Positions 3,829-7,651 of a stretch of DNA of 7,651 nucleotides are shown here, in pieces. Each line of letters starts with the position of its first letter. The stretch's first letter is position 1. The translations under genes and the position numbers were made by a program. The notes beneath the pieces were generated by a model. The model saw only the letters and a list, made by a program, of their open reading frames with translations. It was not told the origin of the DNA and searched no databases. Origin of the DNA: a candidate division TA06 bacterium SM23_40 (GTDB taxonomy: Bacteria; LJUI01; SM1-40); assembly GCA_001303705.1 (NCBI GenBank), contig LJUI01000178.1, positions 1 to 7,651 of the forward strand, read 5' to 3'.

Positions 3829-3878
3829 AGATCCAGAACCTACAGGTCTTTCCAGAGCCTACTCCAAGTTCTGGATCT
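3829..3878. repeat. 11-bp inverted repeat straddling the Kelch stop codon
   Basis: AGATCCAGAAC at 3829-3839 is the exact reverse complement of GTTCTGGATCT at 3868-3878. The 28-nt loop contains the Kelch stop codon (3859-3861), so the last coding residues (IQNL) form one arm. With the hairpin at 3780-3811 it would make a double-hairpin 3' end. Confidence 0.6.
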
Positions 3879-4593
3879 GCCCGATGTACACACTACTGAG
3901 GTATCCCTCGTTGTAACCGCCGAAGACGAAGATGTAATCAGTTGCATCGATGGTTGCCAGCTCCACGTGCGGGATACCGACCGGCGCAGGGAGCGGAGTG
4001 GCCGACATCCACCCCTCTCCCTCCTTCCAGACATGAACCCGATCGCTTGCCGGCCAGGGGCCATAGCCCGCACCGCCGCCGGCAATGACGAGGTACTCCC
4101 TCAGGAAGTCGCCATCGGCAAAAGCGACCGGTTCAGGAAGAGGATCGATCGCCTCCCAGCTCTCCAGGGCCGGGTCGTAGCGGATTACGTCGCTGATAGG
4201 ACTGAGGTCCTCGTGGCTCAGTCCACCTGCGGCGTAGCAATATGTACCGTCGGAGGCCGAGGCTACGTACATCCGCTTCGGTTCCGGCGGAGCACTCATC
4301 TCTATCCAGGAATCGCCGAGAATGTCGTACTCCCAGAAGACCTGGACCGGCCTGTAGCTGTACCGCTGCTCCATATAGTAGTAGTAGATGTTGTTCCCTA
4401 CGGCAGCAGCTCCGTACTTGCAGCACTCGAACCGACCGCTCGGATACGGCGAGCTGAGCATCTCCCACGCGTCGGCCGCCGGATCGTATCTCCTCATCGT
4501 ATCAGAGCCAAGCGTGTGGCCACCGAAGACATAGAACTTCCCATCGTAAACAACTCCCCTGACGTTGGAACCGTGGATGGGTAGCGCCTGCAC
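3859..4593 (-). CDS. Kelch-repeat beta-propeller, probably the frameshifted C-terminus of the upstream protein
   Basis: The 244-residue frame shows about five Kelch blades. Gly-Gly pairs or their equivalents lie at 24-25 (YVFGGH), 123-124 (YAAGGL), 172-174 (IAGGG) and 225-226 (FVFGGY). Blade-ending Tyr...Trp signatures are YDPAADAW (36-43), YDILGDSW (89-96) and YDPALESW (139-146). The second blade lacks Gly-Gly and has a run of Tyr instead. Such propellers bind proteins or glycans outside or inside cells. The first possible start is GTG at 4593, with no Shine-Dalgarno, a TGA in the same frame only two codons upstream (4600-4602), and no signal peptide. It overlaps the preceding gene by 100 bp in the -1 frame, and the Kelch consensus starts almost at its first residue. 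I therefore think it is the C-terminal domain of the upstream exported protein, separated by a frameshift. An independent, translationally coupled gene is the alternative. Confidence 0.65.
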   Translation of the reverse strand: MQALPIHGSNVRGVVYDGKFYVFGGHTLGSDTMRRYDPAADAWEMLSSPYPSGRFECCKYGAAAVGNNIYYYYMEQRYSYRPVQVFWEYDILGDSWIEMSAPPEPKRMYVASASDGTYCYAAGGLSHEDLSPISDVIRYDPALESWEAIDPLPEPVAFADGDFLREYLVIAGGGAGYGPWPASDRVHVWKEGEGWMSATPLPAPVGIPHVELATIDATDYIFVFGGYNEGYLSSVYIGQIQNLE

Positions 4594-7262
4594 GGAGATT
4601 CAAGCCGTTGGCCGGTATCGGCAAGAGAGCTCGGCAGGAATGGGCACGGCCCGCCGTCTGTCGCGACCTCGTCATACCAGGCCATGAGGTTGTAGAACTG
4701 GCCGCAAAAGCCGTCTTTCGTCGAATCCTGGCCAGTACTGTCATAGATCGCCGGGTTCGTCAGATCGCCTCCTATACCATCACCATTGTCATCGAAGAGC
4801 GGGTACTCGGGAGGCGAGGCGGCATTCGAATGGGGTGTTTCCCACTCATACGCCTCGTCGAGGGCGATGTACCCATCTCCATTCCTGTCCGAAGACGAAG
4901 GAACGACATTGTCCGGATATCCACCACGCATCGCCAGTCGCCACATACCAGCCCACCCGTAGGAGTTGGGTTGATTGGCCCGGACGGAGGTGGCGGTGAT
5001 CACGCGCCGCTCATCGCTGCATAGACCCTGCATGTGAGACATGATCGCACCACTATAGCAGGGATTGTATGCCCCGATGTAGGCCCTGCACTCTATGTTG
5101 TCGATCCAGTCTCTCAGCTCAGTGAAGTAGACAAACCCGTTATGGACCTCGAAGCCGCTCGTATTGCCGTGATCGACCCACCAGACATGCACCAGATCAT
5201 CCTGAGTGACCTTCGCTGCAACAGTGTCGAACGCTGCCTGCACATTCGCCTTGGTGCTGATATCATCGACGAGCTCAGGGTGGACGTTGGCGCTATCGCC
5301 GTAGGAGAGGTAGATGATGTCCTCAGGGGCGAATCCCCAGTCCATGAGGGTCCACACCTTCCCCGATGTGTCGTTCCAATACCATCTGTACATCTGACCG
5401 CTCACGTTCCCACCCATGACGACGATCGCGTACCGATGGCCATAGGGCTTCCATTGGCCCGCGCCGGAACTCACTACGAATTCAAACGTGTCCTCGTCAT
5501 AGAGCGTGGAAGGTGGCACCCCGATCCTCGAGCGGTACCCGTATAGACCGGGCGGCGCCGCCAGCGGGACGTCGTGATAGAGGTGATGCTGCACCGTGGC
5601 CTGCGCAGGCAGCGTGTAGTGATCGGGCCCCATGATGCCGCGCGAGTTGCCGTTCGGCATGATGGCGTCCGTCAGGACCCAGAACGGCTCCGGCTCTGTC
5701 CAGCGATTGATGGCCGTATAGGTCACTCCGAGCGCCCCTCCAGGCGAAACCTCAGTGGTATCCGGCGTCAAGTAGAGCGTCACATAGTCATCCTGATCGA
5801 AATAGTGCGCCCCCATGTCGCTGCGCGTGCCATCCGGGTCCAGCGAGTCAGGATGGCCTGCATCTACGCAGGGCGAGCCCCACAAGAGCCGATAGTCTCC
5901 TCTGTCGGCCAGAACGAACATCGGATCGAGGTCGATGTTACCCGGGCCCGGCCAGCCTCCGTCAACGTCAGAATAGCCCACGCTGAACGAGGCCATCAAC
6001 TCGCCATAGATCTCATCTCCCATCCAGGTTCCCGTATCTCTCCAACAGATGGAGTTCAACACATCAATGACAATCTGGATATTCGCGTAGGCATAGAGGC
6101 CGCCTCCCTTGAAGGCCGTGTTTGAGGTAATTGTGTTCCCACAGACCGGGATCGAGCAATTCCAGAAGCCGATACCTCCTCCGCCTCCACTCGGGGCGAC
6201 ATTCTCTGACACGACATTGCCCGCGATCGAACCGTTATTGAAGTTTTTCAAGTATATACCGCCGCCATTGGCGCCAGCTCTGTTCCTGGTGAGGACATTG
6301 CTATGGACAGCGCCACCCATCCCAGGAATCACATTCGACAGGTAGAGGTGGATCCCACCACCGTCACCGCTTGCCGAGTTGTCTGTTATCACATTATCCG
6401 TTATCGCTCCTGAAAACGTATGGAAGCAACTGATCCCGCCGCCTATTCCCGAATCGCCCACGGCGCTGTTGAATCTGATCTCGTTCTGCGAGATCGTATC
6501 GCTGTCGAGGACATAGGAACAGACTCCTCCCCCGATCGACGCAGTGTTCTCTCTGATGGTATTGTGCATGATGGTCGAGACGCACTTGTACGTGAAGACT
6601 CCCCCTCCCATCGTCATCACCGTCGGATAGCCGGTCGTGTCAGCAACGTTACCGACAATCTCGTTGTAGGTGATCACGGGTCTACTCTGGGAGAACATCA
6701 TCCCCCCGCCAGCACCGGATGAATTCTCCGTGAACGTATTGTAAGTCACTGTGGCGTTGGAAGAGTCGATGCCGCAGAGGCCTCCTCCGTTGTGAACGGC
6801 GTGATTCCGACGAACCACGTTATGGATCACGGTCGGGGAACTGTTGATGCACATGATCCCACCGCCGAGCCATCTGTCGTACTCGTTCTTGTACCCCTGT
6901 CCGTTCTGGATCGTGAATCCCCGAATCACCGCATCCGAGGTCTCGCCGCTGCAGAAAATCACGACAGACGCTGTATCGGCCATCCCGACGACGGCCGTAT
7001 CCGCGTCTATGATCGTGTTCTCGATTGTCTGGATGTTGCCAGTGTACAGATACTCGCTGGTGACCAGAATCTTCTTTCCCAGGAAGTTAAGCCGCTCGTA
7101 GTATACTCCCTCTGCCACCAACACAGTATCGCCGTCCACCGCAGCATCGATTCCTGCCTGGATAGCTGGATACTCGCCCGGCACGTGGAGAACCGTCGCC
7201 GCGGCACCAGCACACAGCCCCAGCACCAGAACCGCACCCACAAGGGTCGTCGGCTGTCTCAT
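4494..7262 (-). CDS. Exported beta-helix protein with C13/legumain-like cysteine peptidase domain
   Basis: This 922-residue protein starts with a Sec signal peptide (h-region about 5-20, likely cleavage after AAA at 20-22). A right-handed parallel beta-helix spans about 25-490, opening with LHVPGEYPAIQAGIDAA and carrying ten GGG turns between 133 and 389, spaced 25-34 residues; it closes with SPCVDAGHPDSLDPDG and SDMGAHYF. An Ig-like module follows at about 493-600. The peptidase domain runs from RYAIVVMGG (610) to about 865, with the clan CD dyad His698-Gly699 (WWVDHGN) and Cys735 (YNPCYSG). DRNGDGYIALDE (792-803) is an EF-hand-like calcium loop and DDNGDG (824-829) a second, shorter one. 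I chose the ATG at 7262 over an in-frame start at 7445 because GAGGAGG lies about 10 nt before it and the signal peptide begins there. The last 33 residues (LESPCRRYPSTV onward) look like out-of-frame Kelch sequence. It probably acts at the cell surface or is secreted; its substrate is unknown. Confidence 0.85.
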   Translation of the reverse strand: MRQPTTLVGAVLVLGLCAGAAATVLHVPGEYPAIQAGIDAAVDGDTVLVAEGVYYERLNFLGKKILVTSEYLYTGNIQTIENTIIDADTAVVGMADTASVVIFCSGETSDAVIRGFTIQNGQGYKNEYDRWLGGGIMCINSSPTVIHNVVRRNHAVHNGGGLCGIDSSNATVTYNTFTENSSGAGGGMMFSQSRPVITYNEIVGNVADTTGYPTVMTMGGGVFTYKCVSTIMHNTIRENTASIGGGVCSYVLDSDTISQNEIRFNSAVGDSGIGGGISCFHTFSGAITDNVITDNSASGDGGGIHLYLSNVIPGMGGAVHSNVLTRNRAGANGGGIYLKNFNNGSIAGNVVSENVAPSGGGGGIGFWNCSIPVCGNTITSNTAFKGGGLYAYANIQIVIDVLNSICWRDTGTWMGDEIYGELMASFSVGYSDVDGGWPGPGNIDLDPMFVLADRGDYRLLWGSPCVDAGHPDSLDPDGTRSDMGAHYFDQDDYVTLYLTPDTTEVSPGGALGVTYTAINRWTEPEPFWVLTDAIMPNGNSRGIMGPDHYTLPAQATVQHHLYHDVPLAAPPGLYGYRSRIGVPPSTLYDEDTFEFVVSSGAGQWKPYGHRYAIVVMGGNVSGQMYRWYWNDTSGKVWTLMDWGFAPEDIIYLSYGDSANVHPELVDDISTKANVQAAFDTVAAKVTQDDLVHVWWVDHGNTSGFEVHNGFVYFTELRDWIDNIECRAYIGAYNPCYSGAIMSHMQGLCSDERRVITATSVRANQPNSYGWAGMWRLAMRGGYPDNVVPSSSDRNGDGYIALDEAYEWETPHSNAASPPEYPLFDDNGDGIGGDLTNPAIYDSTGQDSTKDGFCGQFYNLMAWYDEVATDGGPCPFLPSSLADTGQRLESPCRRYPSTVPTSGELFTMGSSMSSVATRLALIR

Positions 7263-7285
7263 GATATCTCTGCCTCCTCGCTGCA

Positions 7286-7435
7286 CTACCCCACCATAAG
7301 ATAGACACCCCCAACAGTCACCGCTGCGTGCCCGCTCCCAGCCAGCAAAAAGACCCGAGCAGCTCCACCGCTCAGGTCCAGAAATCTCTGAGATGTTCTG
7401 CCCGGGCAACGGGGCTCTTTGCCACCCGGTTTCAT
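7286..7435 (-). CDS. Possible 49-codon leader peptide overlapping the terminator
   Basis: An ATG at 7435 opens a 49-codon frame beginning MKPGGKEPRCPG and ending VYLMVG, stopping at 7286, 23 bp before the start of the large exported protein. It runs through the terminator hairpin at 7347-7378. The only Shine-Dalgarno-like sequence, GAGAGGA, lies about 12 nt upstream, which is long. No codon run typical of amino-acid attenuators is present. It could be a regulatory leader peptide, but chance is equally likely. Confidence 0.15.
   Translation of the reverse strand: MKPGGKEPRCPGRTSQRFLDLSGGAARVFLLAGSGHAAVTVGGVYLMVG
7347..7378 (-). terminator. Rho-independent terminator with T5 tract
   Basis: On the minus strand GACCTGAGC (7378-7370), a 9-nt loop, and GCTCGGGTC (7360-7352) form a 9-bp stem with one U-G wobble, followed at once by TTTTT (7351-7347). 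The wobble would be a C-A mismatch on the opposite strand, and the T-run is on this side, so orientation is clear. It ends 84 bp before the start of the large exported protein, and no recognisable protein gene lies upstream of it in the window. Confidence 0.75.
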
Positions 7436-7496
7436 GGCCGCACACCGTCCTCTCGGGCGCATCTGCCCGTACAGGACAGGTACCGACCGCCGCCCA
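7347..7496 (-). ncRNA. Candidate structured small RNA or leader/attenuator (~150 nt)
   Basis: The span from the predicted transcription start (about 7496) to the terminator T-run is about 150 nt and can fold into a chain of hairpins. Hairpin A (7447-7477) has an outer GTCCT/AGGAC stem, a small asymmetric internal loop, and an inner CGGGC/GCCCG stem. Hairpin B (7402-7429) pairs nine positions, including three G-U wobbles that exist only in the minus-strand RNA. Hairpin C (7379-7400) pairs CAGAA/TTCTG and ATC/GAT around a small loop and abuts the terminator. I compared it by eye with SRP RNA, 6S RNA, GEMM, FMN, TPP, guanidine and T-box cores and saw none of their signature sequences. It could be a stand-alone sRNA, or a leader that controls the exported protein gene by attenuation. 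Confidence 0.45.
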
Positions 7497-7502
7497 GTGT
7501 GG

Positions 7503-7532
7503 ATTCTACATCAAGCACGCCACCCGTGTCAA
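7503..7532 (-). promoter_or_regulatory. Near-consensus sigma70 promoter
   Basis: On the minus strand TTGACA (7532-7527; six of six) is followed after 18 bp by TAGAAT (7508-7503; five of six), with TG directly before the -10. It is the best promoter in the window. Transcription should start near 7496 and first produce the structured segment ending at the terminator at 7347. Confidence 0.7.
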
Positions 7533-7569: not shown

Positions 7570-7584
7570 CTGACGATACGTCAG
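7570..7584. repeat. Inverted repeat CTGACG-ATA-CGTCAG
   Basis: A perfect 6-bp inverted repeat with a 3-bp centre. It lies 38 bp upstream of the -35 box of the promoter at 7503-7532, a position suited to a regulator-binding site. It borders the tandem repeats on its right. Confidence 0.4.
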
Positions 7585-7589
7585 ATCAG

Positions 7590-7648
7590 CCGTATCGCCA
7601 GATAGCCCGCTCGGCCGTATCGCCTGAGGCCCGCTCGGCCGTATCGCC
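7590..7648. repeat. Degenerate tandem repeat, 24/25-bp period
   Basis: Two identical 20-bp units occupy 7605-7624 and 7629-7648 (each ending GGCCGTATCGCC), 24 bp apart. A third, degenerate copy retains CCGTATCGCC at 7590-7599, 25 bp before the next core. The array probably continues past the window edge. Read on the minus strand the period of 24 would encode an 8-residue repeat (SGDTAERA), but the 25-bp step breaks the frame. The array may be upstream regulatory sites, a minisatellite, or the decayed end of a repeat-coding gene. Confidence 0.65.
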
Positions 7649-7651
7649 CGA

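Follow-up and report, generated by a model that had tools for sequence, protein, structure and literature searches.

A promoter, a folded RNA of about 150 nucleotides and a terminator lie in order on the minus strand of the window (the whole stretch of DNA that was analyzed, 7,651 nucleotides), and this unit is probably a cis-acting transcription attenuator, riboswitch-like in character, in the 5' leader of a surface-protein gene. The initial annotation had offered either a small RNA (sRNA) or a leader that gates the gene. The leader is favored over the sRNA because the unit is repeated in ten to eleven dispersed copies that have their own promoters and are directed towards genes, largely for exported proteins, and because a core motif in each unit is complementary to the 5' arm of the terminator hairpin. 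The features of the unit and of the gene that follows it are listed below in the order of transcription.

7503 to 7532, minus strand: sigma-70-like promoter TTGACA-N18-TAGAAT (-35 at 7532-7527, -10 at 7508-7503), from a local site scan
7496, minus strand: approximate putative transcription start, placed from the position of the -10 element
7489 to 7496, minus strand: putative 5' strand of P1, TGGGCGGC, predicted to pair with 7410-7403 in the minimum-free-energy fold
7436 to 7488, minus strand: P2, a long hairpin in the computed fold and an extension specific to the window
7411 to 7426, minus strand: P3, a small hairpin in the computed fold, GG.GGC-AAAGA-GCC.CC
7401 to 7409, minus strand: core and proposed antiterminator strand TTGCCCGGG (family CUGCYCGGG), from complementarity to the terminator 5' arm
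7379 to 7400, minus strand: small hairpin in the computed fold, CAGAA.ATCT / AGAT TTCTG (7400-7391/7387-7379)
7352 to 7378, minus strand: terminator hairpin GACCTGAGCGGTGGAGCTGCTCGGGTC, from the scan, genome repeats, covariance models and the computed fold
7347 to 7351, minus strand: U-tract TTTTT, from the sequence and the terminator scan
7273 to 7280, minus strand: Shine-Dalgarno-like CGAGGAGG, from the sequence
4494 to 7262, minus strand: surface-protein gene encoding a signal peptide, a NosD-type right-handed beta-helix and a C13-peptidase-like C-terminal part, from Pfam and the N-terminus

Promoter, terminator and predicted fold

The near-consensus minus-strand promoter described earlier is present (TTGACA-18-TAGAAT, 7532 to 7503) and scores 11/12. 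It is the one promoter-type site on either strand of a 752-base stretch, where 0.3 would be expected. The local scan likewise returned a single terminator hairpin followed by a T-tract (about 7379-7351, minus strand) against 0.2 expected by chance, in agreement with the intrinsic terminator with T5 that had been reported and that lies at 7378-7347. Upstream of the promoter, positions 7575-7651 at the end of the contig consist of imperfect short tandem repeats (GGCCGTATCGCC..GCCCGCTC).

The RNA from 7496 to 7347 on the minus strand has a predicted folding energy of -77.9 kcal/mol (z = -4.3), which none of the shuffled sequences equaled, and the claim that about 150 nucleotides are structured is thus borne out. 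The plus strand of the same stretch gives -57.1 (z = -2.2), which makes the minus strand the more stably folding of the two. The three independent hairpins drawn originally are replaced in the computed fold by a junction of P2 and P3 that is closed by P1 (7496-7489/7410-7403) and followed by the small hairpin and the terminator. No counterpart of P2 was recognized among the other copies of the unit. In the predicted fold the core of the window lies mostly within the 3' strand of P1, and pairing of the P1 5' strand with 7410-7403 would therefore sequester the proposed switching strand.

Copies of the unit in the genome

A DNA search of the genome to which the window belongs (2.88 Mb in 189 contigs) found the terminator hairpin repeated on three contigs, once with 37/37 identical positions and twice with 88-90% identity. 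The idea of an sRNA confined to a single locus was dropped once these repeats appeared. A covariance model of the hairpin built from four seed copies detected six more (E 1.4e-6 to 0.022), and a model rebuilt from the ten copies (R2) of necessity finds all ten again (E <= 1.3e-10). R2 also found a weak eleventh copy (C74), which has both the hairpin and an upstream core. A twelfth sequence, C87, which precedes a short beta-helix frame, is a weak candidate only. Since the pattern of the core motif by itself also has many matches on a reversed control, only matches accompanied by a hairpin were kept. Of the 11 copies, C87 among them, for which 200 nt of sequence upstream are available, nine have a promoter of the form TTGACN-N15..19-TAnnnT within that distance, compared with 2.5% of random genome windows.

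The hairpin is the best conserved part of the copies, conservation here being assessed, like all of the comparative evidence, between paralogues within a single draft genome. Beyond the hairpin and core most copies bear little resemblance to one another, with the exception of a closely related group (C90, C88, C112 and C116b), and the hairpin and the core are thus the elements that have been kept. Covariation within the terminator hairpin is weak. One-sided changes that preserve the hairpin give G-U pairs on the minus strand (pairs 15-33, 19-29, 20-28 and 11-37), and the argument that G-U wobbles identify the minus strand as the transcript holds across the copies. These changes also bear on the DNA of the hairpin, which is a 27-bp inverted repeat and could be read as a transcription factor site downstream of the promoter. 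An operator of this kind is very improbable, as the same changes are G-U on the transcribed strand and merely break the palindrome in DNA.

Two further readings of the repeat were weighed against the copies. A dispersed palindrome resembling REP elements and without a regulatory role would account for a repeated palindrome that the searches made outside this genome did not find, yet there are only 10-11 copies and their promoter and position are conserved, which leaves little room for this explanation. The frame TRAVELLGS runs through the hairpin and is open in C42, C90, C88 and C116b (translated by eye), as a translated leader peptide would require. It contains an in-frame TGA in the window, C116a and C122, and the upstream indels that separate close copies have lengths that are not divisible by three. 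Because of these stops and frame-breaking indels the leader peptide was rejected, and it is the least credible of the alternatives.

Genes downstream of the unit

The surface-protein gene starts, as reported, 84 nt downstream of the unit, with an ATG at 7262 lying 84 nt past the T-tract. Its product had been called an exported peptidase. The signal peptide stands and the match to Pfam NosD is significant, whereas the peptidase assignment is plausible at a Peptidase_C13 match (E = 0.0047) that is below the cut-off of that model. The frame of the surface protein ends at about 4494, and the minus strand continues with a kelch-like frame (3859-4593) in a different reading frame; the change between 4494 and 4600 is possibly a frameshift or an assembly error.

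In seven of the 11 copies the next gene lies 76-231 nt downstream, is preceded by a Shine-Dalgarno sequence and encodes an N-terminus resembling a signal peptide. Its product is a beta-helix protein for the copies in the window, C42, C122 and C155, and another kind of exported protein for C90, C116b and C24. The next gene does not encode an exported protein at C116a (a CDP-alcohol phosphotransferase-like membrane protein gene at 292 nt) or at C74 (a lexA-like gene at 394 nt), and the C88 copy is cut by the end of its contig. Where the close relatives of the C112 leader are followed by a gene, C112 itself is directly followed by an antisense transposase-like frame (L187:238-1206), which by eye is IS110-like. 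The genome as a whole has a large expansion of exported beta-helix paralogues (52 places, with the N-terminal motif HVPGEYPTIQAGIDAAVDGDTVLVA), many of them in tandem on contig C117.

Wherever a downstream gene can be assigned, the copy is oriented towards it. In none of the copies was a promoter-like site found in the 150 nt that follow the hairpin, and the interval from hairpin to start codon likewise has none. Transcription would therefore have to pass the terminator to reach the genes, and the choice of a leader over an sRNA relies chiefly on this point. A multicopy family of trans-acting sRNAs, each unit being a gene of its own duplicated along with the surface genes, would agree with the presence of a promoter and terminator in every unit and with a hairpin that is better conserved than the rest. 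The orientation of the copies and the gap to the gene, mostly 76-231 nt with no promoter-like site, speak against it, as does the generally low similarity of the RNAs beyond the hairpin and core. Moreover, the downstream genes are of several unrelated kinds, so coduplication fails to explain the association. An sRNA family is thus unlikely.

Core motif and proposed antiterminator

The core lies between the promoter and the hairpin of the copies and has the consensus CUGCYCGGG. It resembles the 3' arm of the hairpin (CUGCUCGGGUC) and is consequently complementary to the 5' arm (CCCGAGCGG); the core in the window pairs at 8/9 positions with the terminator 5' arm at 7376-7368. Across 10 copies, 79/90 cells pair in register compared with 26-45/90 when the strands are slid by one to three positions. 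When the upstream site that best complements the 5' arm was compared with dinucleotide shuffles, the combined Fisher p was 4e-6 (0.04 for the 3'-arm control), an optimistic value since the copies are related paralogues in one genome and are not independent. The proposed antiterminator strand was a post hoc finding, and for three sequences (the window, C116a and C122) an upstream site other than the core scores highest as a complement of the 5' arm. Permuting cores against hairpins among the copies gives p ~ 0.06, a value limited by the little variation in core and hairpin sequences. One position between core and 5' arm is usually a C.A mismatch. It is U:A in C116a and C116b, and in C42 a two-sided change has made it G:C, at the cost of an A-U pair in the terminator itself.

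Predicted energies favor the terminator over the antiterminator by 8-16 kcal/mol in 8/10 copies (11.2 in the window), whereas the difference is 1.2 in C155 and 0 in C42. The antiterminator would thus need help or kinetics to form.

Proposed mechanism of attenuation

The leader carries a terminator hairpin and U-tract on the strand of the gene and has no second promoter, as in transcription attenuators. From the computed repeats, promoters, gene association and complementarity we infer read-through, switching, a direction of control and a ligand, which may be pictured as follows. RNA polymerase would start near 7496 and produce the folded leader. As long as the P1 fold upstream keeps the core (7409-7401) paired, formation of the terminator (7378-7352 and U5) would stop transcription. 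A signal, which might be a small molecule, a protein or folding kinetics, would open or remodel the upstream fold, and the freed core would pair with the terminator 5' arm, preventing the terminator and allowing the gene to be transcribed. Since the predicted energies favor the terminator, the default state would be off, and a signal or cotranscriptional folding would have to favor read-through. The presence of the device, with variants, before other genes for exported proteins suggests that it would switch surface proteins as a set.

A second leader family

Inspection of the sequences that precede the 52 beta-helix matches uncovered a second leader type (type-2) that is better conserved than the window type. 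It consists of a TTGAC promoter, a three-way junction (P1 UUCCCGAG/CUCGGGAA, P2, and P3 GCC-CGGU-GGC) and a terminator whose 5' arm contains CCGAGC. Nine copies were located in the genome with a covariance model (L242-L250, for example L242:1501-1565), and 8/9 precede genes with a signal-peptide-like N-terminus. Five pairs of the junction have two-sided changes, and 0/500 shuffles reach the observed covariation score with an alignment that was fitted to the model, compared with 3/500 for a six-sequence MAFFT alignment. In 9/9 copies the strand GCCCGGUGGC can form 8/10 pairs with the terminator arm GACACCGAGC, and the mismatch in this putative switching strand has the same context as in the window type.

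The two types are alike in having a TTGAC promoter, a folded domain, a terminator and an exported gene downstream, as well as a strand GCCCGG opposite CCGAGC. They differ in that type-2 has the covarying P1-P2-P3 junction and another terminator hairpin. Comparison of the sequences is suggestive of shared descent of the two types. The second family also bears on whether the leaders switch at all. A nonswitching 5' untranslated region, in which a partial terminator or a stabilizing hairpin sets a fixed expression level, would be in keeping with a terminator fold that is favored in most copies and with U-tracts that are imperfect in several of them. Such a region would not call for a conserved core complementary to the 5' arm, for the two-sided change in C42 or for a second leader family with an aptamer-like junction at the same position, and it is considered improbable, the attenuator being preferred.

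Distribution and related systems

The earlier statement that the unit belongs to no known RNA family stands, as the window has no match to Rfam at the gathering threshold and only chance-level matches at a permissive threshold. With Rfam 15, ten contigs or loci in which the two types are represented, with five type-2 copies among those searched, gave no match at gathering, and no family was supported at the permissive threshold for one copy of each type. Judged by Rfam, the sequence of the window unit is that of an undescribed family.

Beyond this genome, models of the two leader types, with R2 and R3 among them, found no true member of either family in about 385 sampled genomes of other phyla; the matches inspected were coding sequence or plain terminators. 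R2 had no match in 23 named genomes, a result of little weight. The exact hairpin pattern had 0 matches in 84,980 species genomes and IMG/VR, which excludes close relatives only, as the pattern fits about half of the known copies and host records were perhaps omitted. Strongly diverged members would be missed by model and pattern searches alike. A search for relatives with GlnRS gave matches scattered over many phyla and no placement.

The attenuators that work by a competing antiterminator (trp/TRAP and terminator riboswitches) resemble the proposed leader at the level of class, with mutually exclusive terminator and antiterminator structures that share the terminator 5' arm, whereas the window leader has no aptamer recognized by Rfam. 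The c-di-GMP riboswitches (GEMM class I and class II) also occur in many copies per genome in the leaders of surface and adhesion genes and often act through an intrinsic terminator. Clostridioides difficile 630, for example, has 12 class I and 4 class II c-di-GMP riboswitches (PMC6366702). The likeness is one of placement and copy number only, as the window and the copies searched have no Rfam match; the c-di-GMP-I and c-di-GMP-II models matched neither at gathering nor among the permissive matches. The leader may therefore be said to work like a c-di-GMP riboswitch rather than to be one.

A broader and more tentative proposal, which we hold to be rather doubtful, is that the two architectures form a new superfamily of riboswitch-like leaders in an uncultivated phylum-level lineage, that they have a switching strand in common and number at least 19 copies, and that one signal acts through them to coordinate a large set of surface proteins, beta-helix proteins included. 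If the attenuator reading itself is right, a single genome would switch its surface proteins by families of RNA attenuators, much as C. difficile does with its c-di-GMP riboswitches but without a known RNA family, and the leaders would offer a handle on how an uncultivated lineage controls what it displays to its surroundings. Separately, a long-range stem (CGGCTAC...GTAGCCGT) occurs about 150 nt before beta-helix genes at two other places, both on the minus strand (upstream of 62363 in G000:C4 and of 10893 in G000:C11), and is possibly a third structured leader.
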